64,000 nucleotides of DNA from an uncultured Flavobacteriales bacterium (GTDB lineage Bacteria > Bacteroidota > Bacteroidia > Flavobacteriales_D > Parvicellaceae). The notes below the pieces were generated by a model. The model saw only the letters and a program-made list of their open reading frames with translations, was not told the origin of the DNA and did not search any database. Within the stretch, counting starts at the first letter, position 1. Each line of letters opens with the position of its first letter. Where the stretch lies: assembly GCA_913030835.1 (NCBI GenBank), contig CAJWDP010000010.1, forward strand, positions 1-64,000. Direction: 5' to 3'. Positions 4,001-27,466 of this stretch are shown piece by piece. Both the position numbers and the translations under genes were made by a program.

Positions 4001-7000
4001 TCAAAATCAATTATAACGTTATTTGCTTCAGGCCATACGTCGTCTGCCGCACCTGATCCAAATGGCGAAACTTTGATCGGCACCTCATATTCGTAATAGT
4101 TGTTTTCAAAATCCGTTCCTAACCGAACAAAGCAGGTCAGGTCATTATCATTGAGAGGTTTCGATGGGTCTGTTTCATGGGCATGGACAAACATTCTCAA
4201 TTTTTTGTACGAGAGAACGTCAAACGAGGTGTTTCTGAAGGCAGCTCTTGCATCACCATCCTTCAGATTACAAACTTCAAGCACCATCGATTGCTCATTT
4301 AGCCTTGCGAGATTCTGCGTCTGAATATTGACCTGCCTGTTGATTCCCGGGGGGACCATATAATTGTCATTCTCTTCAATATTTACTGCCCCTATGTTAA
4401 AGATCGTTCCGCTCTCTTCATCCTGGATATAATCACCAGGGGTCCACATTTCTCTTAAATACGGTCTCCACTCCCCTCTGATTAGCTCTAGTCGAGCAAA
4501 TCGTAATGTAACTTCCTCACTAAAATTGTTCATGAACATTCGAATGAATCGTATCGATCTGAAATCCTGAATTCCATTCACTTTACTCGTAGGACTTGCA
4601 ATTGGGATCTTGAACTGATACCAGTTCACCTGTTTGGTAGTAGAACCATTGGTATGCGTGCCTACAACTTTATCCGTAATAAAGTTTTGACCCACAACCA
4701 TGTTTTGAGGTCGAAGATCGATGTGGTATTGAAAATAAGCTTCCGCCTCACTCAAATTATTGTCCTGGTTGATGTCTTCAACATTTGGCAACGTGGTTGC
4801 TGAAGTAGGATAACCTCCGCCTACCGGATTTTGAGCAGCTGATTGATCTGTGGTAGGCGAATTTCCATCTTGGCCGTTGTATTTTTTATATCGCTCTAGG
4901 ATATCATATCCAAGCGCATCATAATCGTCATCCCGATAGTAGTTGTAATTGTCACCTGAAGGATCACCTGCCAACTCACTTTCAACAGCAAATGGAAGCC
5001 CCAGTGTTGTAACATAATTCACAAACGAAGTATAGAATGCTATTTCGTCTTCGTCTTTCATTCCGTCCAAACCAATATCCTGGTTGGGTCTTGCTGAAAG
5101 ATCGTTATCAAACGCATTAACGATTGCCTGAATCGTGGGTACCCTGGCTAAATTTGTTTCTCGAGCTATTGTGGTATCCAACGAACCATCTGTACTATTA
5201 CCGTTTTCAAACGATTTCGCACCATCTTTGATGATGTCTTCGGAGATGTTTCCAATATTGATATAGAAATCTCCACCTTGATGATTTTCCGAATCCGTAT
5301 TTGATGCGTTGGGATGACCTGAGCCATCCGGTGTAAACGGATCCATCAACCAGAACTGTATATACTGAATGTTTGCCGCTTCAAAGTCATTCGTTGTAAG
5401 AGACCTCATGATCCCTCCCCATCGAGTGGTCGGATCGTTCAGATTACCATTAGCAGGGTCAAGTCCGGCGGCATACGAACCGTCATCGTAGTTGTAAATT
5501 CCTCGTTCGTCTGGGTAATATGACATATCAAACATCCCTATAAATGTGGGCTGTCCGGTTCCAAGATCTTTATTCGGAAACAGTTCCGCAACCATGACCC
5601 TTCTTTGTCTGTGATCGTCCTGAATGAGCGGGTTGTCGGCAATGTTGTCCGGTGTCAGCGCATTGTTATTATGAAATAGCGGATCAATAACATACCAGGC
5701 CAAACGGGCTCTGTTCATTCCACACCTTAGATCATCGGTAAAGGAAGCTTCCGGGAACATACTCGGTTGACCTTGCGGAATGGATGCGGGTACCCAAGTG
5801 GTGAACGAACGAATGTCAATGGCGCTTTGCGAACCTTCAAAATCATCTATATAGGAAATCCCCTCATCACCAATTGCACGGTTAAATCCCGGCATCAAAT
5901 AGGCTGCTTCTCCATTTATAGATACTGTTGATTTCTCTTTTGTATTAATCCCGGGTATCATATCCACCAACTTGGTGAGAAACGGCACTTCTTTTCTGAA
6001 GTCACCGTTGATTCCGAATATGGTATTTGAAATCGGCTCGTCCCCCTGATTCACTTTTTGCGTTAGTGGTCTTTCCGTAAGATTCATCACCGTTGCTCCT
6101 AAATTGAAGTCTTTATTGACCCGATAATCCAAATGCGAACCAAGAAGGGTTTTGGATTGGATGCTAAACAACGAATTACTCTCTAAAGAAATTTTAATTG
6201 GCGTACCCGAGCTAAGAATTCCATCATTCAATATTTTCACTCGACCTAAATTGTAATCCACTGTGTAATCCTGTCCTTCTGTAAGTGGTGCGCCTCCTGC
6301 AGTAACCTGGACCGACCCCCTCGGAATGTTAAATGCATTCAGCGATATTTCAGAGCTTGAAGAAGACTCATACGTTCCTTTTAGTTTAAACCTGTTGAGC
6401 TCGGGGATCTGCCTTGCGGCGGTTTGAGTAGAATCGTACAGCGCCTGATAGACAATCTGACTTCGTGTACTCGTATCGATACCATATCTGATCAGTTCAG
6501 AGTTGAGCTGAGACCCAAATGGTTCTACTGTTGTGAAATAAATTCTACCGTTTCGGGTATTGATGGTTCCCCCATTTTCAACCCTGCCGTTCTGAACTGT
6601 CAAAGGCATAAAATCAAAAACACCGTCTGGGTTGTCCAGTTGCTGAGCATTATATCGATCCAGCCCCACCATTCGAACCAGTGGGATTGCGTCGACCCCG
6701 GGCTTCGGAATAAAATTCAAATCAACAGAAGTTGTAGGATTGTTGTACCACACATCCAATCGGAAGTTTTTTTGACTTACCTGGTACGCACCGATTGAAT
6801 ACACGTTTTTCATCATCAAATCCCATAGATTCTTTCTTGGATTGGTCACAGTCGACTTGAGCAGTTTTAGATAAAGCGCGTCTGTTCCCGTTATCCCATC
6901 CGTAGAAAATTCACCCACCTGATATGTATTCCCTTGATACGTGTATTGGTAAGCTACTGCAAGTACTTCATCATTGTTCAAGGCCTGATTCAAGGAAATA

Positions 7001-8409
7001 AATCCCAGCTGAGCATTGTAGCTGTATTCCGTTGGCAGGAGCATTCGTGCATTTTCCAGCTTTTCATAATGGACCGCCTGCTGCATGGGATATAATCCAG
7101 AATTTAAAGCTGCGGAGGAGTTAATAAATCCTCTCACATTTGGATTGCCGTTAACATAGTCATACAGGCCATTAGAACTGTTCCTGGGCAAGTCATCTGA
7201 AGCGGCAAACCCATAGTCGGAATTCAGTTCAATTACAGAGTTTTCACCAAGATCCGTAAATCCAATAATATTTCTCGTGTCCGTAAAATCGTTTGTTCTG
7301 TTGGTCACCCATACTTCAATACGGGTAATTTGCACTCCTGAATTGACCAATGGCAATGATTTCATCGCGCGGTCATAGTTATTCCTGTGGTAGTAATTCA
7401 AGAAATAATGTTTGTTCACCTCATATTTATCTGCACTCAGCTCAAATTCACTGATCTGCGCACCGCCGGCAACACTGATTTCTTTTCTTTCACCTTTCTG
7501 CTGGGAAAAAATGGAGGTTACTGTAGCTCTTCCAAATTGAAGCTCTGTTTTAACACCGAACAAAGAGCTACCGCCTTGAATCAATGAACCGCTTAGCGGT
7601 AAGCTAACATTTCCCGCTTCAATCTTTTTAATGATCTCATCTTCGAACCCGGTGTATTCCAATTTCATTTGATTTTCGAAATCGAACGTTGCCTCCGTAT
7701 TGTAGCTTGTTTGTAGTTTTAGTTTTTCACCAATCTGACCTGTTACATTGAGCTGAATTTTTTCGTCAAAATCAAATGTTGTAATTCTTCGTTGCTTTTC
7801 TGGTAACTGAGGGTTTTCTGTTTTGGAAATGTTTACTCCAAATCGCAATTCTGCAGAACCTTGGGGCTGAATGTTTATTTTGTTGCTTCCAAAAATATCC
7901 TGGAATTTTTTTCCTCCGACTTTCAAATCCGGGATCAATGATGATTCTTCTGATGCCGATTCGCCTGCCACCTGATCTTTCCAGTAATCACTCAATGACT
8001 TTCTAAGGTCGTATTCAAAGTATTCGTCCTGCGTCATGTAGCTAGGATTTCTGTAGTCAAAATCGTTTCCTACACTTGAATTGAAAAGGTAATTTCCAGT
8101 TTCCGGATCGTAAATGATTTCGTTGTTGATGTTGTCCGGATCTGAAAAGTCAATGATGTTAAATATGTCGTTGGACGGGTCAAGGGCCTCTTCAATTGGG
8201 TAGATCAGGTCAATCTCAGGAGAATCAACCTCTATTTGGTGGTTGTCAAAAGGAAAGTTTTGCTCTTCCTCCTCGAGAAAAATTTCGTTGGACAAAAACC
8301 CTTCAGAACGCGTGAAATTGTGGTTCGTTTTGGCAAAAGCAGTGCATATCGCCATAAAGGCAATAGCGCATGCGGTTAGTCTCACCAAATATTTTTGCAA
8401 ACTGCTCAA
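1078..8409 (-). CDS. sprA: Type IX secretion translocon / gliding motility protein SprA
   Basis: This giant outer-membrane protein (2443 residues) matches the size of SprA/Sov, the 36-strand barrel through which T9SS cargo crosses the outer membrane. An N-terminal hydrophobic segment (about residues 8-26) acts as signal peptide. The family signature SYIDDFEGSQSAIDIR is present at roughly residues 848-863, and the protein ends in an aromatic-rich beta-strand region terminating LRFTLQ. The order maeB-ruvA-sprA-gcvH is one I know from other Bacteroidota. No ATG exists near the start: the frame opens after the ruvA TAG, and the candidates are TTG at 8409 (used here), later TTG codons and a GTG at 8385. 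The frame is intact with no sign of frameshift. An acidic run of glutamates lies near residues 1970-1980. Confidence 0.95.
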   Translation of the reverse strand: MSSLQKYLVRLTACAIAFMAICTAFAKTNHNFTRSEGFLSNEIFLEEEEQNFPFDNHQIEVDSPEIDLIYPIEEALDPSNDIFNIIDFSDPDNINNEIIYDPETGNYLFNSSVGNDFDYRNPSYMTQDEYFEYDLRKSLSDYWKDQVAGESASEESSLIPDLKVGGKKFQDIFGSNKINIQPQGSAELRFGVNISKTENPQLPEKQRRITTFDFDEKIQLNVTGQIGEKLKLQTSYNTEATFDFENQMKLEYTGFEDEIIKKIEAGNVSLPLSGSLIQGGSSLFGVKTELQFGRATVTSIFSQQKGERKEISVAGGAQISEFELSADKYEVNKHYFLNYYHRNNYDRAMKSLPLVNSGVQITRIEVWVTNRTNDFTDTRNIIGFTDLGENSVIELNSDYGFAASDDLPRNSSNGLYDYVNGNPNVRGFINSSAALNSGLYPMQQAVHYEKLENARMLLPTEYSYNAQLGFISLNQALNNDEVLAVAYQYTYQGNTYQVGEFSTDGITGTDALYLKLLKSTVTNPRKNLWDLMMKNVYSIGAYQVSQKNFRLDVWYNNPTTSVDLNFIPKPGVDAIPLVRMVGLDRYNAQQLDNPDGVFDFMPLTVQNGRVENGGTINTRNGRIYFTTVEPFGSQLNSELIRYGIDTSTRSQIVYQALYDSTQTAARQIPELNRFKLKGTYESSSSSEISLNAFNIPRGSVQVTAGGAPLTEGQDYTVDYNLGRVKILNDGILSSGTPIKISLESNSLFSIQSKTLLGSHLDYRVNKDFNLGATVMNLTERPLTQKVNQGDEPISNTIFGINGDFRKEVPFLTKLVDMIPGINTKEKSTVSINGEAAYLMPGFNRAIGDEGISYIDDFEGSQSAIDIRSFTTWVPASIPQGQPSMFPEASFTDDLRCGMNRARLAWYVIDPLFHNNNALTPDNIADNPLIQDDHRQRRVMVAELFPNKDLGTGQPTFIGMFDMSYYPDERGIYNYDDGSYAAGLDPANGNLNDPTTRWGGIMRSLTTNDFEAANIQYIQFWLMDPFTPDGSGHPNASNTDSENHQGGDFYINIGNISEDIIKDGAKSFENGNSTDGSLDTTIARETNLARVPTIQAIVNAFDNDLSARPNQDIGLDGMKDEDEIAFYTSFVNYVTTLGLPFAVESELAGDPSGDNYNYYRDDDYDALGYDILERYKKYNGQDGNSPTTDQSAAQNPVGGGYPTSATTLPNVEDINQDNNLSEAEAYFQYHIDLRPQNMVVGQNFITDKVVGTHTNGSTTKQVNWYQFKIPIASPTSKVNGIQDFRSIRFIRMFMNNFSEEVTLRFARLELIRGEWRPYLREMWTPGDYIQDEESGTIFNIGAVNIEENDNYMVPPGINRQVNIQTQNLARLNEQSMVLEVCNLKDGDARAAFRNTSFDVLSYKKLRMFVHAHETDPSKPLNDNDLTCFVRLGTDFENNYYEYEVPIKVSPFGSGAADDVWPEANNVIIDFDKIRSLKVTRPGGLATGGTTPYTVPDPDDPSRRITIVGNPSLSDIKTIMIGVRNPWKDDPTHQWQPDDGLEKCAEVWVNELRLTDFDDFGGWAAQGRVTAQLADFANVAMSGGISTPGFGSIEKRISDRQRETIKSFDASATVQLGKFFGSNSGVTLPMYVGYGDMIIDPMFDPLNPDILMKNLKAEDLERARNISRDYTQRKSINFTNVRINKKREGAKPHFWDIGNWSYTFSYSQTYKRDINTEFNTFKDYRTNLNYAYSPNSKPWKPFSKIKFIRKSKWLKLVKDFNLYTKPKSISIRTNIDRTYNESQIRGNYNALTLPQFYKTFNWNRGYDIKYDITKALKVDFSASNNAIIAENEKWVNQDWYPDQYQNFKDTVSQSIRNWGTTMQYGHGLNVSYQLPLNKFPLTDWINVSTKYSVAYDWTRAPLAQAELGNTVQNSRKVNWNGQANLVNLYNKIPYFKKVNRKYGRGRSNSARRQIKKPSLKKPSGSDEPEEEEEKEFKVFEQLARVIMMLKNVNMTYSTTDGVLLPGYTPSTNIVGMSPGFNAPGLEFILGGYQRYDLLGDTTGNDFAQYVADNNWMIRDSNSQRLNTQYTNNHAQNMTGKATIEPIGGIRIDLNLNRNMSVNRTDNFRWNDSLSMYQHQNPMETGTFSTTILTWQTAFESDTSNSSVIFTNLRDFRPLVSQILSDENENSSGAHLEDQGYADGYGAAQQDVILGSFIAAYTGKNPDKNNINPFSIIPLPNWRITIDGIARIPFMKKIFKSITFSHSYKSNFTIGSFTTNLNATTDPSNGQITSRDASGNFISERQIMTASIMEQFSPLINFDATLHNSLILKAEFKKDRNVSLSLANNQITEIKGNEFVIGTGYRFDNVELPFKIAGKKPVSNLNTRVDISIRSNKTITRKIIENQNQVTAGQQLISIKCTADYKLGKALTVRAYFDRIVTKPFISTSFPTANTNAGLALRFTLQ

Positions 8410-12118: not shown

Positions 12119-12889
12119 TTAGTGCTTTACGATCAGCCTACTCGTATTCACTGAATTCGGACCCTGCCGAACGGTAACAAAGTAAACTCCTTCAGCTAAA
12201 TTGCTGGTATTGATCGTCATTCTGTTCGGTGAGATCACATTTGTGAACGAAAGGTGTTTCTTTCCTAAAATGTCCACCAGATTCACCTCTAAGTCATTAC
12301 CGGAAAAATCACCATCTAATGTCAAAATGGCTCGGTCATCGCACGGATTTGGAAAAAGTGAAACATTCAAGTTAGTTCGTTCATCTACACTACTTGCAGG
12401 AGTTATATCGAATTCAATGTCGACATAAGCTGAATCGCTCGGATTTGCTCCATCATACACGACATATCTAAATTTTGTTGTTCCCACGGCAGCATTTGGC
12501 ACCAAATACGTATTTACCGTACTGGTTGCTCCGCCCGCAACGCTTACATAATCCAAGGACTCGGGATCCGATGGCGCAGGAAAGATATAATTCGCACCCG
12601 CTGCCATTTGACCATAGCACACACCGAAGCAGAAATAGTTAAATGTTCCCGACAATTCAGATAATTCAATTCTTTTCACTTTGGCATCAATTGCCGCACC
12701 AGTAGTATTCTTTACCACGATGTCCACATCGTGCTTAAAAAATGGATCAGTTGGTGCATTTTGTCCAGAAAACGTATATAACGCACCTGTCAAATCACCA
12801 CCATGATCATTAAGTATCTGAAAAGATCCTTGTGAAAATCCGGAGATAATAATTGCACTTAACGATATTGAGAGTAGAATATTCTTCAT
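12119..12889 (-). CDS. Secreted protein with T9SS type A sorting domain
   Basis: A 256-residue exported protein of unknown function. Residues 1-19 are a signal peptide ending near GFSQ. The middle, about residues 25-165, reads as a beta-rich domain with one CFGVC pair. The final ~80 residues form a T9SS type A C-terminal domain: LFPNPCDDRAILTL, then LVDILGKK, then INTSNLAEGVYFVTV and a terminal SRLIVKH. That domain is cleaved as cargo passes through SprA. The gene is single, with its own promoter-like box upstream and a terminator downstream. Apart from export through the T9SS I cannot assign a role. Confidence 0.88.
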   Translation of the reverse strand: MKNILLSISLSAIIISGFSQGSFQILNDHGGDLTGALYTFSGQNAPTDPFFKHDVDIVVKNTTGAAIDAKVKRIELSELSGTFNYFCFGVCYGQMAAGANYIFPAPSDPESLDYVSVAGGATSTVNTYLVPNAAVGTTKFRYVVYDGANPSDSAYVDIEFDITPASSVDERTNLNVSLFPNPCDDRAILTLDGDFSGNDLEVNLVDILGKKHLSFTNVISPNRMTINTSNLAEGVYFVTVRQGPNSVNTSRLIVKH

Positions 12890-13240: not shown

Positions 13241-15214
13241 ATGAAAAAACTTATACTTTCAGGATTAACATTGTTTGCTGCCAGCACTATGATTTCGCAG
13301 GTAGCGATGATGCCCGTTATTGAGCATTTCACTCAAGCGTCTTGCGGACCATGTGCGTCTGCCAACCCTGTTCTTGCATCCACACTAAATACATTTGGTA
13401 CTGCAAACTATGTGCGAATCTCGCACCAGGTTTCTTGGCCAGGTTTTGATCCCATGTACAATTCATTTCCTGCCGGTCCAGATGATCGAGTTAGCTACTA
13501 TGGAATTACCGGTGTACCTAACACTTCTCTTCAGGGTGGAGCGCCAGGATCTTCAGGAACCGTGGTAACTGCTGCAACTTTAGCAAATGTTGCTGCAATG
13601 ACCACTCCTTACCAAATAACTGCAACCCAAACTTGGAATGCAGATTGGTCGATAACCCTGGACATCGATGTAACCAATACGTCAGGTGCTTCTGTATCAG
13701 ATGCAGACAAAATTTACGTTGCAATGATCGAGAATCACGTTACTTATCCAAGTGCTCCGGGATCAAATGGAGAAACTGAATTTGAATACGTGATGAGAGA
13801 AATGTACAATGCATCGACAGGTGCTGCTGGTGCAAGCACAGGTGCTGCGCTCGGAGCAATCGCTGCTGGTGCGACCGAGTCATTTAATTTCACGATTGCG
13901 GCTGCGAATGTCCCTAACTACATTAGAGATTACAGGGAAATCAGCTTTGCAGTTTACTTGCAAAACAATTCCTCTAAGGCGATACATCAAGCTGCAAAAT
14001 CTGCTGCTGGATCGACTCCGACAGATAGACTTGCGGCATCAGCTACAGCTTCGTCAACAGCAGGTTCTGGTTTGTGTGACTATTCGTTTACTCCGGGAAT
14101 TACTTACACCAATGAAGATGCTGTCACAGTAACAGAAGTTATCGTAGAATATGACATCAACGGAGGAACAGCTGTCAGTGAGACATTCACAGGATCAATC
14201 GCTGCAGGAGCTTCTCAAGCGATTTCTTTCCCGGCTACCACATTGGTGCCAGGCACGTCGGTTGTAAATTACCGGGTCACGAGCGCGAATGGAAGTACTA
14301 TGTTTCAAAACCCGGGCGGTATTGAAATTGCAAGTGAAACCTACAGAAGGTTGAATTCTGCCAGCTCTGCAACGCCGATGACTGAAGGAATGGAAAGTGC
14401 CCCTTTGATTACCGGTACAGGTTACTCAAGAGATCTTACCACAGCAATCTTTTCAACTACTCCGGATGATGTGACCGAGTCTCTGTTTTCAATCCTAGAT
14501 GGTCCGACGTACAGCTACGGAGCAATAGGCGGATTCGCTGCTTCAGACAGAAGTGTAAGGTTTAGGTTCTACAACCTAAGCGGTAGCGAGGAGCTCGACT
14601 TAGTTTTTGAAAAGCTTACGATGCCTTCTTCCGGTTCACAGCTTAAGTTCAGTCATGCCTACAGACAATATATAAGTGAAAATGATCGCCTTCAAGTTGA
14701 CGTATCCACAGATTGTGGCGCTACTTGGACCAACGTATTCGATAAGGCAGGTTCCGATTTGATGACGTTACCTCCGGCAACCGCTCAGTACACACCTTCA
14801 AGTGCCAGTGATTGGGAGCTTAACCTGATCGACCTTTCTGCATACGATGGTCAGTCTGATGTAGTGATTCGATTCAGAGGAACTTCAGCATACGGTAACA
14901 ACTTGTATTTGGATGACATCAATGTTAGTCAAGCAACAAGTGTAATTGAGAACGAAGTAGAAAATCTGGAAATTTCAATCATGCCTAACCCGGCAAACGA
15001 ATACATGGTTGCTAATTTCACTGTGAATGAAAACGTAGTTCCTTTTATTACGATCGTAAATTCTCTTGGACAGCAAGTGAAAAATGTACCTGTAAGTGGT
15101 ACAGCAGGAATGAATTCTGTGCGAATTAACACGAGCGATTTCCCTGCAGGAATTTACTTTTTCAATGTTATTTCCAACAATGGAACTGCAACGAAAAGAT
15201 TCGTTGTAGAATAA
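13241..15214 (+). CDS. Omp28-like thioredoxin-fold protein with T9SS type A sorting domain
   Basis: A 657-residue exported protein. The signal peptide spans residues 1-20. An Omp28-like thioredoxin-fold domain follows, with a CGPC motif at residues 35-38 (EHFTQASCGPCASANP), the active-site position of thioredoxins. The central part contains beta domains, including a jelly-roll-like region (about residues 375-570) rich in aromatic and Gly residues. The last ~80 residues are a T9SS sorting domain (IMPNPANEYMVANF through IYFFNVISNNGTATKRFVVE). The cargo would thus carry a thiol-redox domain to the cell surface. A TlpA-like gene follows after a strong terminator. Substrate and partner are unknown. 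Confidence 0.88.
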   Translation: MKKLILSGLTLFAASTMISQVAMMPVIEHFTQASCGPCASANPVLASTLNTFGTANYVRISHQVSWPGFDPMYNSFPAGPDDRVSYYGITGVPNTSLQGGAPGSSGTVVTAATLANVAAMTTPYQITATQTWNADWSITLDIDVTNTSGASVSDADKIYVAMIENHVTYPSAPGSNGETEFEYVMREMYNASTGAAGASTGAALGAIAAGATESFNFTIAAANVPNYIRDYREISFAVYLQNNSSKAIHQAAKSAAGSTPTDRLAASATASSTAGSGLCDYSFTPGITYTNEDAVTVTEVIVEYDINGGTAVSETFTGSIAAGASQAISFPATTLVPGTSVVNYRVTSANGSTMFQNPGGIEIASETYRRLNSASSATPMTEGMESAPLITGTGYSRDLTTAIFSTTPDDVTESLFSILDGPTYSYGAIGGFAASDRSVRFRFYNLSGSEELDLVFEKLTMPSSGSQLKFSHAYRQYISENDRLQVDVSTDCGATWTNVFDKAGSDLMTLPPATAQYTPSSASDWELNLIDLSAYDGQSDVVIRFRGTSAYGNNLYLDDINVSQATSVIENEVENLEISIMPNPANEYMVANFTVNENVVPFITIVNSLGQQVKNVPVSGTAGMNSVRINTSDFPAGIYFFNVISNNGTATKRFVVE

Positions 15215-15235
15215 GAACATATTTCGATCTATTTG

Positions 15236-15272
15236 ATAAGGGGTGGAAGAGTTGATTCCACCCCTTATTTTT
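15236..15272 (+). terminator. Strong intrinsic terminator after the Omp28-like T9SS cargo gene
   Basis: A 13-pair perfect stem (15236-15248 with 15256-15268), including AAGGGGTGGAA against TTCCACCCCTT, closes a 7-base loop and is followed by TTTTG. It is the clearest terminator in the window and separates the 13241 gene from the TlpA-like gene. Confidence 0.88.
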
Positions 15273-15417
15273 GCTCCATATTGATCGTATAGGAATTCAA
15301 TATTGAACCTGAAGCATACCTTTGGAGATTTTTCTCTTATAGCTATCTTTACGTTCAAGTTCCGCCAATCCTATTTGGCGTGATTTATGGTAAGAAGATG
15401 ACAAACAAAATCTAAGG

Positions 15418-15915
15418 ATGAAAAACAAATTACTTGTATTGCTAATGACCCTTTGTATAACAGGTGGTGCACTAGCGCAAAAAAAATCAATCCCAAGTGT
15501 TAAATTAGAAACACTGGATGGGAAGTCGTTTAATACTAGTTCTATCAGTAATGATGGCAACCCAACAATTATCAGTTTTTGGGCAACATGGTGCAAGCCT
15601 TGTAAGGAAGAACTGAATACCATTGCTGACGAATACGAAGACTGGATCGATGAAACAGGCGTGAAGTTGGTCGCTGTTTCTATCGATGATCAGCGTTCAG
15701 CTACAAGAGTAAAGCCCTATGTTAACTCCGTTGGTTGGGAATACGATATCTTGTTGGATAAAAACTCGGATTTTAAGCGGGCCATGGGTGTACAAAATGT
15801 GCCACACACATTCCTCCTCGATGGCAATGGAAACATTGTATACCAGCACAACAGCTACTCTCCAGGCGACGAAGAAAAGCTGTACGAAAAAGTTAAATCA
15901 GCGGCTAAAAAGTAA
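15418..15915 (+). CDS. TlpA-like thiol-disulfide oxidoreductase
   Basis: A 165-residue exported thioredoxin-fold protein of the TlpA/ResA type. The signal peptide is residues 1-20 (ending GGALAQ). The active site is WATWCKPC with cysteines at 59 and 62, and a cis-proline loop appears as NVPHTFLLDGNG. Members of this family reduce or exchange disulfides in periplasmic proteins, often apocytochromes c or other metalloproteins. The gene is followed after 53 bases by a DUF6029-type barrel and then an Omp28-like lipoprotein. I recall this order from other Bacteroidota, so the proteins may act together. No specific substrate can be read from the sequence. Confidence 0.92.
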   Translation: MKNKLLVLLMTLCITGGALAQKKSIPSVKLETLDGKSFNTSSISNDGNPTIISFWATWCKPCKEELNTIADEYEDWIDETGVKLVAVSIDDQRSATRVKPYVNSVGWEYDILLDKNSDFKRAMGVQNVPHTFLLDGNGNIVYQHNSYSPGDEEKLYEKVKSAAKK

Positions 15916-15925
15916 CCGTTCAGCT

Positions 15926-15933
15926 TATATTTG
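15926..15933 (+). promoter_or_regulatory. Candidate -7 promoter box (TATATTTG) for the DUF6029-type gene
   Basis: TATATTTG lies 35 bases upstream of the ATG at 15969, between the TlpA-like stop and the barrel gene. No good TTTG is seen at -33, so it may be a weak internal promoter of the cluster. Confidence 0.35.
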
Positions 15934-15968
15934 CAACTAGAAACACAAAGAAAAATTCACTTTTTCAA

Positions 15969-17690
15969 ATGAAAAAACTTGCAGCAGGTTATTGCATGTT
16001 GGTCCTTTTCTCTTCGATGATTTTCGCTCAGGAAAATGATAAGCGACAAATTGATCTGGGAGAAATAAAGGGAAATGTTTCCGTTGCTTACCAGCAATAT
16101 CAGGAAGACAGCACGATCAATGCTGCTGTTCCGGATGAAAAATCCACTCTGACGGCATTTACCAACCTAATTTACACGCGTGGAAATGTAAGTGCCGGAG
16201 TTCGTTATGAATCGTACCTTCCTGCACAGCTTGGTTATCCAGATCGTTTTGATGGTACGGGTCTCGGTTACAGATTTGCCTCCTACGATACTGATCCGAT
16301 CAGCGTAACGGTCGGTAATTTCTACGAGCAATTTGGAAGTGGTCTGGTCTTCAGATCGTATGAAGAAAGATTGTTGGGAATTGATAACGCGATGGATGGT
16401 ATGCGAATTAAGGCTCACCCGTTGCCCGGAATTTATCTCAAAGGAATTTATGGAAAACAGCGGTTTCAGTTTACTGATGGTTTAGTGAATGGCCCGGGTT
16501 TAGTTCGCGGTTTTGATGGGGAGCTGGTAGTGAATGAGCTATTGGATTCCATCTCGGGGAAATCCATCGATTCTTTGCCGTACAGAAAGCTGAACGTTAT
16601 TGTTGGTGGAAGCTTTTTGAGTAAATACCAACCCGACAATAGTACAACGCTTATTCTACCGGAAAATGTAGGTACCTATGCCGGACGGATTCGAATGAAT
16701 TATGGCAAAGTCAGTCTAAGCGGTGAGTATGGTTACAAAATCAACGATCCTTCGGGGGACAATGGTTTTGTTTACAAGGATGGTCATGCTGCACTACTCA
16801 ATTTCACCTATGCGACCAAGGGCTTTTCTTTATTACTGGATGCGAAAACAACGGACAACTTCAATATTCGATCTGATCGAACTGCGGAGCTTCAGGATCT
16901 GTTGATCAATTTCTCACCTGCTTTAACCAAGCAACATTCATACAATCTAGCGGCAACGCTTTACCCCTATGGATCAAGGCCTTGGGGAGAAGTCGCTTAC
17001 CAAGCTGAAGTGAGCTATAAGGTGCCGAAACGAAGTAAAATCGGCGGGAAATACGGGATCTTGCTTACGGCAAATTTCTCCACTGTTTTCGGGCTTGACA
17101 CCACGAATATTATGGAGGACATTGACGACGTTTCAAGTACAAGGCAAGGTTACGTGACCAATCGTTTCTTCTTACCCGGAAAAGAAAAATATTTTCAGGA
17201 TTTCAATTTTGAAATTAAGAAGAAGTTCAGCAAGACGTTCAAGGCGGTTTACACCTACTTCAACTTTTTTTACAACAATGACATCAACCAAGGAGCTTTC
17301 GACAATGATAATAAGGCTGTTCGAGGCAATATTCTTTCTCAAATCCATGTTTTAGACCTGTCAAAGCGATTCAAAAAGAAGCACAACATTCGAGTAGAGC
17401 TGCAACACCTTTCTACACAAGAACATTTGGGAAATTGGGCAACAGCACTTATTGAATATACGTACTCACCCCATTGGTTTGTTGGATTGCTGGATCAATA
17501 CAATTATGGAAATCCAGACATGGATAAACGAGTACATTATCTGTATGGAACAATAGGTTATGTGAGCGGAGCTCATCGGTTTGCTGTCGGATACGGGAAG
17601 CAACGAGCTGGATTATTTTGTGTAGGGGGTGTATGCAGACAGGTACCTGCCTCCAATGGATTAACACTTACGTTTACAACAAGTTTTTAG
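15969..17690 (+). CDS. DUF6029-type outer-membrane beta-barrel protein
   Basis: A 573-residue protein with a signal peptide (residues 1-20, ending SSMIFAQ) followed by alternating beta strands rich in Tyr, Phe and Gly. It ends in the aromatic terminal strand LTLTFTTSF typical of outer-membrane barrels. Early motifs such as GEIKGNVSVAYQQYQ and DPISVTVGNFYEQFGSG fit the DUF6029 family as I recall it. A CVGGVC cysteine pair near residues 554-559 is unusual in a barrel, and notable because the genes on either side encode CXXC thioredoxin-fold proteins. It could be a porin or the membrane partner of those proteins; the function is unknown. Confidence 0.75.
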   Translation: MKKLAAGYCMLVLFSSMIFAQENDKRQIDLGEIKGNVSVAYQQYQEDSTINAAVPDEKSTLTAFTNLIYTRGNVSAGVRYESYLPAQLGYPDRFDGTGLGYRFASYDTDPISVTVGNFYEQFGSGLVFRSYEERLLGIDNAMDGMRIKAHPLPGIYLKGIYGKQRFQFTDGLVNGPGLVRGFDGELVVNELLDSISGKSIDSLPYRKLNVIVGGSFLSKYQPDNSTTLILPENVGTYAGRIRMNYGKVSLSGEYGYKINDPSGDNGFVYKDGHAALLNFTYATKGFSLLLDAKTTDNFNIRSDRTAELQDLLINFSPALTKQHSYNLAATLYPYGSRPWGEVAYQAEVSYKVPKRSKIGGKYGILLTANFSTVFGLDTTNIMEDIDDVSSTRQGYVTNRFFLPGKEKYFQDFNFEIKKKFSKTFKAVYTYFNFFYNNDINQGAFDNDNKAVRGNILSQIHVLDLSKRFKKKHNIRVELQHLSTQEHLGNWATALIEYTYSPHWFVGLLDQYNYGNPDMDKRVHYLYGTIGYVSGAHRFAVGYGKQRAGLFCVGGVCRQVPASNGLTLTFTTSF

Positions 17691-17701
17691 AAATATTGAA
17701 C

Positions 17702-18637
17702 ATGAATAAAGCACTGATTTCATTTTTTACGCTGGCAATTCTATTCGTCCTTTCCTGTGACAAGGTTGAATACCCCAATGTTGGAACCGTAATTGTAAAT
17801 GAAAGTTGTGACACAGTTTTTAGTTTTTCCGCCGCAACATCAAACGTAAGAAATGTTTTGGTTGAAGATTTTACAGGCCATTTGTGTGGCAATTGTCCGG
17901 AAGCAGCATATGAATTAGAACAGCTACATGGGGTTTACGGAGATACATTGATTTTGCTTTCCATACATCCGAATACCTCATTTAACGAAGTACAAACCGG
18001 AACGGGAAAATATGAAACCGATTGGAGGATTGAAGAAGCCGAACAAATTTTCAATGAGTTTTATATGCCATCCAGCCTTCCGAGGTTGATGATCAATCGA
18101 GAAGAGTCAACCCCGCCATTTTATTTTTTCAACTCCAATCAGTTGTCTACTGAAGTTCCTAGCCGCATGGGGCAATTGGCCGACTTTGCTATTAAGTGCA
18201 GCGGAAATATGCTGGCTGATCGAACTATCTGTGCAAAAGTGGAAGTAGAAGTTCTGAATACAGTAAGCAGCACCTACAATGTTGTAAACTGTTTAGTTGA
18301 AGATTCCATTGTTGACTATCAAACCGTTTATCCCGGTCAACATCCAGACTATACCGGTGCATCAGACGACACTTATTCAAATTATGTTCATCGTCATGTG
18401 CTCAGGGATATTTTTGGGCATTATGGAGCGGTTGAAGGTGGCGCTCCCTTGTCAGGAAGTATATGGGGTGACCCTATCGTCGGCTCAACCAATGCGGGTG
18501 ACATAAAACAGTTTGTAATATCATCAACTCCAATCCCTGCAGAATGGGATGAAAATCACATGTACATTTTATCCTACGTATTTGATAATGCTACGAAAGA
18601 AATACTACAGGTGATTGAAACCAAAATCGGATCTTAA
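17702..18637 (+). CDS. Omp28-related lipoprotein with CXXC motif
   Basis: A 311-residue lipoprotein. The signal peptide carries a lipobox, FVLSC, with the lipidated cysteine at residue 19. An Omp28-type thioredoxin-like domain follows, containing EDFTGHLCGNCPEAA with cysteines at 62 and 65. This pattern matches the CGPC domain of the cargo protein at 13241, so the window has two Omp28-type proteins, one lipid-anchored and one sent through the T9SS. The frame opens upstream at 17618 inside the barrel gene, but the ATG at 17702 gives a proper signal peptide. The next gene begins five bases after the stop, which suggests an operon. Confidence 0.87.
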   Translation: MNKALISFFTLAILFVLSCDKVEYPNVGTVIVNESCDTVFSFSAATSNVRNVLVEDFTGHLCGNCPEAAYELEQLHGVYGDTLILLSIHPNTSFNEVQTGTGKYETDWRIEEAEQIFNEFYMPSSLPRLMINREESTPPFYFFNSNQLSTEVPSRMGQLADFAIKCSGNMLADRTICAKVEVEVLNTVSSTYNVVNCLVEDSIVDYQTVYPGQHPDYTGASDDTYSNYVHRHVLRDIFGHYGAVEGGAPLSGSIWGDPIVGSTNAGDIKQFVISSTPIPAEWDENHMYILSYVFDNATKEILQVIETKIGS

Positions 18638-18642
18638 TAATC

Positions 18643-19275
18643 GTGAATAAGTCCACATTTTTTCTGCTTTCGATACTAACCATCGCCTTCTATCCTATCA
18701 TTTATTCTCAGGAAGACACAACTGTTCAAAGATTGAGCGTTGGTTTTCAAGTCGGGTTAAATGCTTCAACCGTGACCGGAACGTCTTTTCAAGGGATCAA
18801 CAAAGTTGGTCTATTATCCAGCATTTGCATATCTAAAAAAATTAAAGAGAACATCAATTTAGACCTTAATTTGTCCTATTCGCAAAAAGGGACGCTAAAA
18901 CCGCCTGTTCCGAAAAACGGTGATTACACCAAATACCTGATGAAGCTTGATTATATCTCCTCGGAGTTGTATTGTAGATATCAAAGAAAAGGGATTCATT
19001 ACCTTGGGGGTTTAGGGATGGGGGTTCTGATCAGGGCTGAAGAGACCGATGAGAACAATCAAGTTATAGTTGGCAATGGAGATTTTTCAAAGATGGAAAT
19101 CACAGGTGCATTGGGCATACTGTTCCCACTTTCTGACAAATTCGGTATCGGAGTTCTTGGCACTCATTCTCTAATTCCTGTAAGAAAACATGCAAATGGG
19201 GTTACTTTTCGTTTGAATAGAGGTCAGTACAACCAGGTGGTTAGTTTTATTCTTAAGTATACTATACTATCCTAA
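18643..19275 (+). CDS. PorT-like outer-membrane beta-barrel protein
   Basis: A 210-residue protein starting at GTG, five bases after the Omp28-like lipoprotein stop. Residues 1-22 are a signal peptide (ending IIYSQ). The remainder has the pattern of the small PorT/OMP_b-brl_2 barrels: SVGFQVGLNASTVTG near the start, repeated aromatic strands such as NINLDLNLSYSQKG, a glycine-rich turn HYLGGLGMGVLI and a terminal VVSFILKYTILS. Such 8-stranded proteins are common in Bacteroidota and usually have no known function. It appears to close the operon begun by the TlpA-like or DUF6029-type gene. Confidence 0.75.
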   Translation: MNKSTFFLLSILTIAFYPIIYSQEDTTVQRLSVGFQVGLNASTVTGTSFQGINKVGLLSSICISKKIKENINLDLNLSYSQKGTLKPPVPKNGDYTKYLMKLDYISSELYCRYQRKGIHYLGGLGMGVLIRAEETDENNQVIVGNGDFSKMEITGALGILFPLSDKFGIGVLGTHSLIPVRKHANGVTFRLNRGQYNQVVSFILKYTILS

Positions 19276-22428: not shown

Positions 22429-24189
22429 CTAATGCTCTTCTTCTCCTTCTTCAAGAGGAACCGTTTGAGGACAAAAATCTTCTTCTTTACCAGGCTTGCT
22501 GTAATCATATGGCCACCTGTGTACTTCAGGAATCTCTCCAGGCCAGTTTCCGTGAACGTGCTCAACCGGAGTTGTCCATTCCAGCGTATTTCCCCTCCAA
22601 GGGTTCTGAATGGCTTTCTGTCCTCTAATAGCACTGTAGAAGAAGTTGAACAAGAAAACCAATTGTACCGCTGCACCAACTAAAGCAAACACCGTTATTA
22701 CTACATTCAGATCAATCACATGATCGAACATTGGAAATTCTGAATACTCATAATATCTTCTTGGTGCTCCCGCCAATCCCGTAAAGTGCATTGGGAAGAA
22801 AACCCCATATCCACAAACTAAAGTCGTCCAGAAATGGAAGTATCCCATCTTTTTGTTCATCATTTTCCCGTAGAGTTTAGGGAACCAGTGGTAAACACCA
22901 GCAAACATTCCAAATATCGCAGATAGTCCCATTACAATATGAAAATGTCCGACAACAAAATAGGTGTCGTGAACGTCGATATCCAGTGCCGAATCAGCAA
23001 GAATAATTCCCGTTACTCCTCCGGTAATGAAAGTGGAAACCAAAGCAATACTGAACAGCATGGCAGGAGTAAACACAATATTTCCTTTCCAAATCGTAGT
23101 AATATAATTGAACACTTTTACTGCAGAAGGTATTGCAATTAGCAGTGTTGTAAAGACAAACACACCTCCCAGGAACGGGTTCATTCCAGTAATAAACATG
23201 TGGTGTCCCCAAACAATGAACGAAAGAAAACCAATGGCCATTATCGAACCGATCATTGCACGATAACCAAATATGGGCTTTCTTGAATTTGTCGAGATAA
23301 TCTCTGATGTAATTCCTAGAGCGGGTAAGAGGACGATATACACTTCCGGATGCCCTAAGAACCAGAACAAATGTTGAAAGAGTATCGGAGATCCACCGGT
23401 TTGATCCAAAGCATGCCCGTCGATAAAAATATCAGACAAGTAAAAGCTTGTTCCAAATCCACGATCCATTATCATCAATACTGCAGCTGAAAGAAGAACG
23501 GGGAAGGAAAGTACACCTAATACTGCTGTTATAAAAAACGCCCAAATCGTCAACGGCATTCTGGTCATTTTCATTCCTTTGGTTCTCAAATTCAGAATAG
23601 TAACGATATAGTTCAATGAACCCAACAGCGAAGAAGCAATGAAAATTGCCATTGATACCAACCACAAGGTCATCCCAAAACCTGATCCCGGAACCGATTC
23701 CTCCAAAACTGAGAACGGAGGATAAATTGTCCATCCCGCCATTGCCGGTCCATTTTCTACAAACAAGGAAACCAACATGGTTAGACTTGAAAGACAGAAA
23801 AACCAATACGATAACAAGTTGAGCAGACCCGAAGCCATGTCACGTGCTCCTAACTGAAGCGGAATTAATAGATTCGAAAATGTTCCAGACAACCCACCGG
23901 TAAGAACAAAGAAAACCATGATCGTACCATGTATGGTAACTAATCCCAAATACATATTGCTGTTCATCACACCTTCAGGAGCCCAATCCCCAAGGAAGAT
24001 ACTATTCATAATGTTTGGCCCTGGCCAACCCAATTGAATTCTGAATAGCGTGGACAAGAACACCCCAACCACTCCCATGATTATGGCTGTGAAAAGGAAT
24101 TGTTTCGCAATCATTTTATGATCCTGCGAGAAAATGTACTTGGTTATAAAACTCTCTTTGTGATGATGTGCATGTGCGTGAGCTCCCAT
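22429..24189 (-). CDS. ctaD: Cytochrome c oxidase subunit I
   Basis: The 586-residue catalytic subunit of an aa3/caa3-type haem-copper oxidase, which reduces oxygen to water and pumps protons. About twelve membrane helices are present. The HPEVYIVLLP motif provides the CuB histidine-tyrosine region, WGHHMF the two further CuB histidines, and VVGHFHIVMG the haem a3 and haem a ligands. The N-terminal leader HAHAHHHKE is histidine rich, as is common in this group. The gene follows coxB by 36 bases and ends the run actA-actF-coxB-coxA. No subunit III gene follows; the next gene downstream is unrelated. Confidence 0.97.
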   Translation of the reverse strand: MGAHAHAHHHKESFITKYIFSQDHKMIAKQFLFTAIIMGVVGVFLSTLFRIQLGWPGPNIMNSIFLGDWAPEGVMNSNMYLGLVTIHGTIMVFFVLTGGLSGTFSNLLIPLQLGARDMASGLLNLLSYWFFCLSSLTMLVSLFVENGPAMAGWTIYPPFSVLEESVPGSGFGMTLWLVSMAIFIASSLLGSLNYIVTILNLRTKGMKMTRMPLTIWAFFITAVLGVLSFPVLLSAAVLMIMDRGFGTSFYLSDIFIDGHALDQTGGSPILFQHLFWFLGHPEVYIVLLPALGITSEIISTNSRKPIFGYRAMIGSIMAIGFLSFIVWGHHMFITGMNPFLGGVFVFTTLLIAIPSAVKVFNYITTIWKGNIVFTPAMLFSIALVSTFITGGVTGIILADSALDIDVHDTYFVVGHFHIVMGLSAIFGMFAGVYHWFPKLYGKMMNKKMGYFHFWTTLVCGYGVFFPMHFTGLAGAPRRYYEYSEFPMFDHVIDLNVVITVFALVGAAVQLVFLFNFFYSAIRGQKAIQNPWRGNTLEWTTPVEHVHGNWPGEIPEVHRWPYDYSKPGKEEDFCPQTVPLEEGEEEH

Positions 24190-24225
24190 AACTGTCCTGT
24201 TAAATTCTTTTTATTCTAAATTTCT

Positions 24226-25800
24226 TTACTTCAATTCGCTCTCCTGAAGCTGCTGCTCAAACGTCTTTTGTTCAGCAATCCAAGCGTCATACTCTTCCTG
24301 TGTTTCAACAATCACTTTGATCCACATATTCGAATGAGCTGTTCCACAAATCTTATTGCAAAGTAGGATGTATCCGGGTTCTACAGCCGGTCTACCTTCT
24401 TTCTCTCTTTTCTTATTGATCAGCTCGTATTTTGCAATAATCTCAGGATCCTTCTTAAAGTCTTTTGTCGTCATCGTTGGCGTTAGCTTCATCTGTGTAG
24501 CCATTCCTGGAACACAATTCATTTGAGCTCTGAAATGTGGGAAATAGGCAGAGTGAATCACATCCTGAGCCTTGAACTGAAACTCATAGGGCTGTCCTAC
24601 CACTAAATGCATATCTCCTTTCACTACGACATCGTCGTATACCCTTGAGTTCACATCTGACTTTTCCAGTTCATTCAATTCCATCTCATTCGCTATTGTC
24701 GCCTGAATTTTTTGCTTCTTTCTTTTCAAACGTTCCATTTCTTCCGTCATATCGGATAACTCAAGATCCGTAGCGTAATTTGCTTCCTCACTATCTAAAA
24801 AGACATTGATTTCATCCACTCTTTTGTCAATTCGTTTCAAGTGCAATTCTACCGTTTCGGAGGAAACCAGACCAAGAGGATTCATAAATGGATTGGCATC
24901 TCCCCAGCTATTGTAATCAATTAGTTTAAAATCTGCATCCCCTAATTCGTTATCCTTACCTGAGTAACGCGTAGTCCAGTCCCATTGTTTTGAATACAAT
25001 TCAATATGTTTTTGTTCTTTCAGCTCAGTAAACGATGTTACTCCTTCACCCACCATAGCCAAAAGTGCTTCATTTCTAGAATTATATTTCTTTTGCTCAT
25101 TGATGACCAGCTCATTTTCTCCCTCTTGATCGTAGGTTTGAATCACCCAGCTCCCATTTTTTTCCACAAGCACATTTTTTGCATCACCGCCTAGCCCGCT
25201 TAAATGCATCCCTGCCTCTTCTGCTGTTTCAAAAACTTGTTTTACCTCAAAAGTGGATTTCACATTGTTATCATCTCCATTCGCTGGTAAAATAACGTGC
25301 TCTTGTACTACATAATTATCGGAAAGATCTGTGATTTCATTCCATGTTCTTAGACCAAGAACTATGATCACAGCCAAAACAATTGCAGGAACAACAGTCC
25401 ACACCAATTCAAGTTTGTTATTGTGAGCGTAGTAATATGCCTTTCTGTCTTTGTCATAGGCATACTTAAAAGCAAAGTAAAACAGTACCGCGTTACAAAG
25501 GAAAAATACCGGAATAATGATGCCAAAATTCAGACCAATTAACCAATCCGTAACCTGGCCATGAATTGACACTGCAGGTCCTTTTCCACCCATTCCGTAT
25601 TCCCACATCTGCCAGATCACAAATATGAAGAATGCTATACAGAATACGAGCATTAGGACCGCATTCATGTTGTTATCCCTTTTTGTGACTGCCGCGTCAC
25701 TTCGACCTCTCACTTTTGTGGAAAGTTCATAGACCCTCATCATCTGCGCTATTGCCAAGACGAGGAGAACTAAAACTACTATCAACAATACTTTACCCAT
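24226..25800 (-). CDS. coxB: Cytochrome c oxidase subunit II with extra insertions
   Basis: A 524-residue subunit II that takes electrons at a CuA centre and passes them to subunit I. Hydrophobic segments lie at about residues 4-22, 47-66, 90-112 and 132-150. CuA ligands are seen as H416 (HSAYFPHF), then C481, C485, H489 and M492 in LLCNKICGTAHSNM; the usual glutamate between the cysteines is a lysine. The protein is longer than I expect for this group (about 350-420 residues). The excess sits at residues ~165-265, between the last helix and the conserved ELYSKQWDWTTRYSG block, and at ~313-380, a charged predicted coiled coil. It is encoded between actF and coxA. Confidence 0.93.
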   Translation of the reverse strand: MGKVLLIVVLVLLVLAIAQMMRVYELSTKVRGRSDAAVTKRDNNMNAVLMLVFCIAFFIFVIWQMWEYGMGGKGPAVSIHGQVTDWLIGLNFGIIIPVFFLCNAVLFYFAFKYAYDKDRKAYYYAHNNKLELVWTVVPAIVLAVIIVLGLRTWNEITDLSDNYVVQEHVILPANGDDNNVKSTFEVKQVFETAEEAGMHLSGLGGDAKNVLVEKNGSWVIQTYDQEGENELVINEQKKYNSRNEALLAMVGEGVTSFTELKEQKHIELYSKQWDWTTRYSGKDNELGDADFKLIDYNSWGDANPFMNPLGLVSSETVELHLKRIDKRVDEINVFLDSEEANYATDLELSDMTEEMERLKRKKQKIQATIANEMELNELEKSDVNSRVYDDVVVKGDMHLVVGQPYEFQFKAQDVIHSAYFPHFRAQMNCVPGMATQMKLTPTMTTKDFKKDPEIIAKYELINKKREKEGRPAVEPGYILLCNKICGTAHSNMWIKVIVETQEEYDAWIAEQKTFEQQLQESELK

Positions 25801-25840
25801 GACCAGTCTTTATATCTAGTTACTTTTAATTTCTTTTATT

Positions 25841-27445
25841 TTAAAAATCGTGATGTACGGACTCATCCAACATCGGGTGATTTTTCTTAATTAACGGTGC
25901 CTTTGTTAAATTTCTTAGGAGCAAGAAAATGAATATTCCAAGGAATAAAAGGAACATTCCTATTTCCAATGCGCCAATTTGATAATTGTTCATTATCGTT
26001 CCCGGCATTACCATAAGGTACACATCCATCCAATGGCCCACGAATATGATTGAGCTAATTACCACTAAAATACTCCAGGTTCTTTTCGCATCTCTTGACA
26101 TCAACAAGACCATTGGAAGCACAAAGTTGATTGCAAAAGTTCCGAAGAACAAGAATTTATAATCTAATATTCTCTGTTGGAAATAGACTACTTCTTCTCC
26201 TATGTTCGAATACCATATCAACATAAATTGAGAGAACCACAAATAGCTCCAAAGGAAGCTGATCGCGAAAATCCACTTGCCTACATCATGAATATGAGAT
26301 TGATTGATTTGTGGCATATAGCCCCTTGATTTTAGGTATAGCATGGTCATCATAATCATGATCATTGCGGAAATCCAAATTCCCGAAAAGACATACCACC
26401 CGAACAAGGTCGAGAACCAATGCGCATCAATGGACATGATCCAATCCCAAGCCAGCATGGATGAGAACACAGCGAAGAACACCAAAAACAACGCTCCCCT
26501 TCGGTATTGTAAAAAGTGTAGCTTGAGGCCGCCTTCTTCGTCTTCTCTTTTCGACCACTTTCTGAAGAAGAACGCAAAAACCAAAAAGACGCCAATGTAG
26601 ACCAATGTACGAATCCAAAAGAACGGCTCATTCAGGTATCCAGATTTCTGATACAACAACTTATCAAAGCTCTCTCCCAAGACCATTTTTGAATCGTCCA
26701 TCCACATGTAGATGTGGTTCCAATCCAATGTTCCCGCAAGAAAAACCACAATAAGCACAACGGCACCAAAAGGCAGAACAAGCATTACTCCTTCGAATAT
26801 TCTTAAGATCACGGCACCCCAGCCTGACTCGGTTGCGTAATGCAATGCCAAATAGAATAAAGCTCCTAACGAAATCCCAAAGAAGAAAAATCCATTAATC
26901 AGCAAATTTGACCAAAACCTGTTGTGTTGATGATCGGGCATGCCCACTTTATGATCATCGACCCATGCTTTTAGCGTAGGCATGATCTGATCTTCATGAT
27001 GATGCCAAGCTTTCATGCCTTCTTTCGTGTGTATCACGTGCGCACCTATCGTCCAGGTTGGTTCCGGTCGGTGACCGTGATGCCCACCATGATCATCTCC
27101 ATGTCCATGTTCGTGTCCTTCATCGTTGCCATGATCATCATGAGACACGTGCTCTTCCTCTCCATGACCTGCAGCTCCATGTCCATGGGCGCCCGGCTCA
27201 ATTATTTCAATGTGGCTACTAAGCGCTGCCGCAGTCAGATCGGCCTTAAACTGTTCCCACTCCTCGTCGGTATTTTCACCATTATTGTGAGTCGGGTATG
27301 ACATTGTGAGTTGAGTTCCGTCTTCACTCATTTTAGTGTGAATGTAGGATTGCTCTGTGAACATACCCCAAACCATAGCAATCAGGCCAACGATCATCAG
27401 GGTGAATGTTACTTTTTTCGCTCTCGATGAAATCTTAAATTCCAT
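25841..27445 (-). CDS. actF: Alternative complex III subunit ActF with histidine-rich tract
   Basis: A multi-spanning NrfD-like integral membrane subunit of alternative complex III, related to ActC, with about ten helices over 534 residues. An ATG at 27445 is preferred over the TTG four codons earlier. After a first helix (about residues 13-30), a soluble stretch contains 13 histidines in residues 87-125, alternating with Gly, Asp and Glu. Further His residues follow (WHHHEDQ, DHQHNRFW) before the second helix near residue 178. The family is normally around 450 residues, so the tract accounts for much of the excess length. The gene lies 21 bases after actE and 40 before coxB. Confidence 0.93.
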   Translation of the reverse strand: MEFKISSRAKKVTFTLMIVGLIAMVWGMFTEQSYIHTKMSEDGTQLTMSYPTHNNGENTDEEWEQFKADLTAAALSSHIEIIEPGAHGHGAAGHGEEEHVSHDDHGNDEGHEHGHGDDHGGHHGHRPEPTWTIGAHVIHTKEGMKAWHHHEDQIMPTLKAWVDDHKVGMPDHQHNRFWSNLLINGFFFFGISLGALFYLALHYATESGWGAVILRIFEGVMLVLPFGAVVLIVVFLAGTLDWNHIYMWMDDSKMVLGESFDKLLYQKSGYLNEPFFWIRTLVYIGVFLVFAFFFRKWSKREDEEGGLKLHFLQYRRGALFLVFFAVFSSMLAWDWIMSIDAHWFSTLFGWYVFSGIWISAMIMIMMTMLYLKSRGYMPQINQSHIHDVGKWIFAISFLWSYLWFSQFMLIWYSNIGEEVVYFQQRILDYKFLFFGTFAINFVLPMVLLMSRDAKRTWSILVVISSIIFVGHWMDVYLMVMPGTIMNNYQIGALEIGMFLLFLGIFIFLLLRNLTKAPLIKKNHPMLDESVHHDF

Positions 27446-27466
27446 TTGTCTTTTCAATTAAATGTC

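Follow-up and report, generated by a model that had tools for sequence, protein, structure and literature searches.

A conserved gene module of a TlpA-type thioredoxin, a DUF6029 outer-membrane barrel and an Omp28-type protein in Bacteroidota, and its possible connection with PorA

The transmembrane thiol relays of DsbD and the Dsb pathways serve as the working idea for the gene block described here; DsbD spans the inner membrane, and we know of no thiol relay across the outer membrane. The block lies in a 64,000-nt stretch of DNA (the window; contig CAJWDP010000010.1 of GenBank assembly GCA_913030835.1) from an uncultured Flavobacteriales bacterium of the Parvicellaceae. On the plus strand it carries genes for a predicted periplasmic thioredoxin of the TlpA/ResA type (nt 15418–15915), a DUF6029 outer-membrane barrel (nt 15969–17690) and an Omp28 outer-membrane lipoprotein (nt 17702–18637), and a putative member of the PorA family is encoded nearby on the minus strand (nt 12119–12889). 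Known TlpA/ResA/DsbE proteins serve cytochrome or oxidase maturation; the TlpA of the window matches them in family and in its CxPC site, but the group of orthologues to which it belongs is linked with an outer-membrane barrel. Among described surface proteins, HBP35 of Porphyromonas gingivalis is a thioredoxin secreted by the type IX secretion system (T9SS), and its activity requires its two cysteines (PMC2907840, in the portion available). PorA of the same species (PG2172/PGN_0123) activates PorXY-SigP, and its arrival at the surface does not depend on the T9SS translocon. The literature names as open questions the route that PorA takes and the means by which a signal passes from a surface protein to a kinase in the inner membrane. 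The published PorA/PorXY-SigP work covers PorA alone, and its text contains none of the words disulfide, Omp28 and operon. No description of the module was found in the literature on DUF6029, Omp28 with TlpA, the P. gingivalis locus tags, PorA/SigP or T9SS thiol proteins, a search that lay outside most subscription journals.

The TlpA, DUF6029 and Omp28-type genes form a conserved module. A search of 395 Bacteroidota genomes with PF19494 matched 98, and the 98 loci fetched (one genome, G180, contributing two) together with the window gave a phylum survey of 99 loci in 26 families. In 86 of these, DUF6029 has a TlpA orthologue (at least 150 bits) no more than 2.5 kb away, in 81 cases as the gene immediately upstream in the same orientation. 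A thioredoxin-fold outer partner is found no more than 5 kb away in 88, and 79 have both partners. TlpA is near DUF6029 in 24 of the 26 families, and gene clustering likewise placed the TlpA family directly upstream of DUF6029 in most loci. An earlier note on this DNA, made from the sequence alone, had proposed a surface redox system and a survey of DUF6029 neighbourhoods for TlpA and Omp28 genes; these counts are the opposite of a DUF6029 found mostly without thioredoxin-fold neighbours. Since there is a single close TlpA orthologue (at least 150 bits) in 10 of 12 genomes searched, the linkage exceeds chance. The profiles used (TLPA, OMP_C3, OMP_C4, TRX_C5 and A5) were built from the loci of the phylum survey, so its counts are not independent. 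Two further samples, which share some loci, were scored with the same profiles. In 80 named loci (the best 80 of 589, ranked by similarity to the DUF6029 of the window), TlpA was found in 75 and a downstream Omp28 in 71 (74/78 and 69/77 when a 1 kb flank was available). In a sample of one locus for each of 38 Bacteroidia families, drawn from the places listed in a class-wide sample and without the most divergent DUF6029 copies of the class, 32 loci had TlpA, 31 had Omp28 and 30 had both flanking DUF6029. SprA, a marker of the T9SS, is present in 97 of the 98 DUF6029 genomes vs 304 of 395 overall.

The DUF6029 protein of the window matches PF19494 over residues 9–573 (559.8 bits, cut-off 27) and carries the motif CVGGVC at 551–556. 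An AlphaFold2 model (predicted local distance difference test, pLDDT, 91.8; predicted template modelling score 0.88) has 24 barrel strands, counted from DSSP, and the loop joining the last two contains a short hairpin that bears C551 and C556. In the usual barrel topology the C-terminus is periplasmic, and on that basis the last loop is taken as extracellular and the cysteine pair is predicted to be on the outer side. A CxxG[VIL]C pair occurs in all 96 intact copies of the phylum survey (73 at 100 bits or more, and 23 of the 24 below that score), the count omitting two truncated or frameshifted copies (L042, L052) and a 19-bit hit without the module (L103). It also occurs in 38/38 loci of the 38-family sample, and C551, G554 and C556 are invariant in 82/82 aligned members. 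Matches of the DUF6029 profile to RecA in a search of PDB sequences (34 residues, no stretch passing alone) were judged to be chance.

Immediately downstream, the Omp28 lipoprotein (PF11551, 57.6 bits, cut-off 34.9) has CGNC at residues 62–65. Its start was set at the ATG at nt 17702, followed by a lipobox (...FVLSC), as the longer TTG frame from nt 17618 runs into DUF6029; against the NCBIfam Omp28 lipoprotein model NF033782 it scored 112.6 bits, under the curated cut-off of 150. The predicted structure (pLDDT 83.4) comprises a thioredoxin domain and, after it, a beta-sandwich. The first thioredoxin helix (65–82) begins at CGNC, P127 occupies the cis-proline position before strand 128–131, and C19, C62, C65 and P127 are invariant in 36 aligned Omp28 lipoproteins. 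The best structural match is HBP35 (5y1a; Z 24.4, root-mean-square deviation 2.2 A, 221 aligned residues), and 2R2C, a domain of the P. gingivalis Omp28, also matches (Z 12.0). The model, the invariant proline and the HBP35 match thus bear out the earlier suggestion that the Omp28 cysteines are at a thioredoxin active-site position. HBP35 has the same two-domain fold as the model and its thioredoxin activity has been demonstrated, but it is anchored via the T9SS rather than by lipid, and the available part of the HBP35 literature reports no TlpA or DUF6029 partner. In Paraprevotella, a screen of trypsin degradation that depends on the T9SS showed trypsin capture to require an Omp28-related protein (PMC9477747, seen as an excerpt).

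The outer slot is filled differently among lineages. In the phylum survey it held an Omp28 lipoprotein in 37 loci, an Omp28 of a second, mostly T9SS-tailed cluster in 33, and a second thioredoxin family in 20. Many loci with this last family have a pair of such genes, whose products carry, respectively, a lipobox and an end like that of T9SS cargo. Across the second Omp28 cluster and the second thioredoxin family, the T9SS tail model matched 37 of 52 scanned proteins and both CxxC cysteines were invariant in 52/52 aligned. As the slot is refilled by differing exported thioredoxin-fold proteins, what is kept appears to be an external thiol site, and the predicted presence of such sites on either side of the outer membrane, already proposed in the earlier note, is well supported.

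On the inner side, TlpA matches AhpC-TSA (PF00578, 76.2 bits) and Redoxin (PF08534, 73.3 bits), has CKPC at residues 59–62 and falls under every cut-off in an NCBIfam scan. Its best relative in the PDB is 2M72 (E 3.2e-47), which we take to be PG_2175. A signal peptide, recognised by eye, and the family indicate a periplasmic protein. One DsbD_TM protein was found in the genome of the window, in which DsbB and VKOR were looked for and not detected; a reducing input to TlpA is therefore likely, and its electrons probably come from DsbD.

The minus-strand gene at nt 12119–12889 encodes a protein with a signal peptide, an immunoglobulin (Ig)-like N-domain containing CFGVC (C87, C91) and a T9SS type A tail (PF18962, 45.6 bits). 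Small T9SS-tailed relatives of this protein form with it a family whose genes neighbour DUF6029 in many lineages. A profile of 29 N-domains of this family (A5, from which the PorA-like frame of L126 was left out, as were L033, L046 and L128) had one significant match in the PDB, the N-domain of PorA (6KJK; E 4.7e-5, 26.3 bits). Like the protein of the window, PorA is small, has an Ig fold and a T9SS tail, and contains a cysteine pair; membership of the PorA family is suggested by this remote match backed by gene order. The pair is present in 40/40 and 60/60 covering rows, for which the seeds, but not the hits, had been selected by the pair; the PorA-like rows of L040, L042, L044 and L047, where the cysteine pair is not followed in the pattern by Y, W or F, were dropped. 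Hits to the PorA family were found in 58 of the 395 genomes, and 51 of these 58 have DUF6029, vs 98 of 395 overall; the odds ratio, taken over genomes with SprA and without regard to kinship, is 32. In 34 genomes from 11 families the two genes lie within 6 kb of each other. A second, weak PorA-like hit (29 bits) occurs elsewhere in the genome of the window (G000:C34:2045-2332). That genome also encodes a protein with a PglZ domain, as is present in PorX.

A different arrangement is seen in one family (f34) and in genome G212, where DUF6029 has no TlpA at its locus and TlpA is instead found elsewhere, divergent beside PorA. This divergent pair was present in 8 of 11 non-own genomes searched (G109, G196, G212, G287, G314, G357, G369 and G389), and was not found in G160, G128 and G164. 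The PorA copies of these split loci are absent from the PorA profile. The module in f34 and G212 is split into two parts, both of which are retained.

Porphyromonas gingivalis may carry the same block. Two surveyed loci, L220 and L245, have the order TlpA-DUF6029-Omp28-PorA, and in L245 the Omp28 matches 2R2C (E 2.3e-17) and the TlpA matches 2M72 (E 1.9e-59). PG2173 is the Omp28 lipoprotein of P. gingivalis (PMC9722745, in the part available), and PG2174 is an uncharacterised protein found in vesicles (PMC4335976, likewise in part). With PorA as PG2172, the tags PG2172, PG2173 and PG2174 run in an order that agrees with L220 and L245, the gene order of L245 being the one that tags PG2175 to PG2172 would predict, and, judged from locus tags, this suggests a corresponding block in P. 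gingivalis.

We lean towards the reading that TlpA, DUF6029 and Omp28 constitute one thiol-disulfide module across the outer membrane, with PorA as its commonest client. TlpA would act in the periplasm, probably with electrons from DsbD; DUF6029 would be a wide barrel presenting its CxxGxC pair, for which we infer a redox role, at the outer end; and the outer thioredoxin-fold partner would be held outside by lipid or by the T9SS, the lipoprotein presumably facing the surface. Their joint task would be to set the state of the cysteines in surface proteins, or to repair it, and PorA, a putative substrate offering its own conserved cysteine pair, may be foremost among these proteins. The surface redox system of the earlier note thus stands as regards gene linkage and thiol sites, but that account overlooked the PorA-family gene and SprA (nt 1078–8409, minus strand), and it is the former that likely gives the system its purpose. 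The module offers three named candidate parts for the questions surrounding PorA, two of which have solved relatives (2M72 for TlpA, 2R2C for Omp28), and a redox-active barrel pair would make this a thiol system that reaches across the outer membrane. Of the 395 Bacteroidia genomes in the class-wide sample, 277 have DUF6029, and the answer would therefore concern a large part of the class.

Several observations weigh against this reading. The PorA match is remote (26 bits over 55 residues), and a single relative, that of L245, gave no match on its own in a phmmer search. No PorA-like gene was found near DUF6029 in 62 of the 99 loci of the phylum survey, from which it follows that PorA is not the sole client, and none was found in the genomes of family f25 by profile searches of locus and genome. 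The counts are favoured by profiles made from the surveyed loci and by PorA seeds picked beside DUF6029, and the co-occurrence and linkage tests ignore the kinship of the genomes. Finally, the two barrel cysteines, placed as they are in a hairpin loop, may form no more than a structural disulfide.

The barrel model itself invites another explanation, in which DUF6029 exports PorA independently of the T9SS, as a wide pore operating in the manner of a chaperone-usher system: TlpA would keep the cysteines of PorA reduced inside, and Omp28 would oxidise or receive PorA outside. The nearest solved folds are the usher pores FimD and PapC (Foldseek E 4.2e-10; Z 17.6, root-mean-square deviation 4.5, 372 aligned). 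Usher pores have 24 strands, the number also counted on the DUF6029 model, and the PorA structure paper reports that the N-domain of PorA most resembles FimH, an usher cargo. The OccK small-solute porins, however, tie with the ushers (Z 16.9, a gap of less than 1), none of the 82 DUF6029 members searched matched the usher family of Pfam, even at E values as high as 1, and neither an N- nor a C-domain of ushers was found in DUF6029. Membership of DUF6029 in the usher family was accordingly rejected, while a pore that works like an usher was retained as a reading. It is further opposed by the 47 of 98 DUF6029 genomes without a detected PorA, and by an interactome study in which PorA was found with PorV and Sov and a possible alternative route was called strange (PMC8754138, in the part available). 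We consider such an export pore unlikely.

A comparably unlikely explanation confines the two thioredoxin-fold proteins to barrel assembly, in which they would form or reshuffle a single structural disulfide in the loop of DUF6029, itself an ordinary small-substrate channel. Some barrels do require disulfide foldases, and an invariant pair in a confidently modelled loop is what would be expected of a structural disulfide. A dedicated outer thioredoxin that is kept through replacement of one family by another nevertheless exceeds the needs of one disulfide, and this explanation accounts neither for the co-occurrence with PorA nor for the pairing of TlpA with PorA in the split loci.

The thiol-disulfide module can also be extended into a bolder form, permitted but not demanded by the evidence, in which the barrel is the conduit of PorA. 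Here DUF6029 would be a thiol-gated, usher-like pore and the T9SS-independent route of PorA; TlpA would keep PorA reduced inside, Omp28 or a T9SS-borne thioredoxin would close or read its cysteines outside, and the cysteine state of PorA would signal, via PorXY-SigP, whether the T9SS is to be built. We regard this combination as quite unlikely.

Acquisition of heme or metal, with the outer thioredoxin-fold protein binding and reducing a ligand that the barrel passes on and TlpA receives, appears more doubtful still. HBP35, the closest fold to Omp28, binds hemin and is required at low hemin (PMC2907840, in the portion available), and a preprint (2026) on surface thioredoxins in Muribaculaceae proposes iron roles (PMC13404670, in its available part), but the recurrent neighbour clusters examined (8 + 4 of 45 listed) contained no recognisable metal or heme partner. 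That DUF6029 is a porin for polysaccharide secretion, an idea prompted by the HHpred links between DUF6029 and many of 28 Wzi-barrel homologues (PMC9603273, in part), is highly improbable and was rejected, as the recurrent neighbours examined are thioredoxin-fold and T9SS proteins, not polysaccharide export genes.

Around the conserved module, the other features of the window are more variable. A T9SS-tailed cargo of the Omp28 type (nt 13241–15214, plus strand; PF11551, 43.8 bits, cut-off 34.9; PF18962, 39.6 bits) with CGPC at residues 35–38 precedes TlpA, and is separated from it by an intrinsic terminator, a hairpin and T-run at nt 15235–15269 (plus strand). The hairpin (14 pairs, -22.7 kcal/mol, z -4.3) was equalled by none of 200 shuffles; it was absent from the output of the first pattern scan of the window, and the folding test found it to be real. 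The strong terminator of the earlier note is thereby confirmed, and it does set the first gene apart in this genome, but a similar thioredoxin-fold gene recurs in the same slot in 13 of the 38 loci of the family sample. The cargo gene is thus probably part of the wider neighbourhood of the module despite the terminator, as an optional extra surface thioredoxin-fold protein. Extra thioredoxin-fold genes, often T9SS-tailed, between PorA and TlpA or beside PorA were also seen in L034, L046 and L047.

Downstream of the Omp28 lipoprotein is a small beta-barrel (nt 18643–19275, plus strand), a lineage-specific companion of the module. The five genes and cysteine motifs listed in the earlier note agree with the profile matches and translations, except that for its label of PorT-like for this barrel the score to PF13568 (24.7 bits) is under the cut-off of 27. 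Homologues were found in at least 20 of the 80 named loci, and in many Flavobacteriales-type loci (L172, L178, L201 and others) the small barrel follows the Omp28 lipoprotein. SprA/Sov, the outer-membrane translocon of the T9SS (TIGR04189, 2511 bits), is a neighbour about 4 kb from the PorA-family gene and outside the conserved module; it is also near the module in G045 (contig C26). Genome G230 (L043), which has DUF6029, TlpA and Omp28, is the sole case among the 98 without a SprA match.

The f25 loci between L053 and L112 have a highly divergent DUF6029 (27–48 bits, except L103) with TlpA upstream, and downstream a thioredoxin that is a lipoprotein, one that has a T9SS-like end, or both; that these genomes are Balneola-like is a guess. 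Three loci (L165, L188 and L197) carry the module in metagenome bins titled Polynucleobacter, Euryarchaeota and Sphingomonadales, which are probably mislabelled or contaminated. TlpA homologues elsewhere serve oxidase assembly, and further along the window (nt 22429–27457, minus strand) are genes that seem to encode components of a terminal oxidase and of the complex that partners it.

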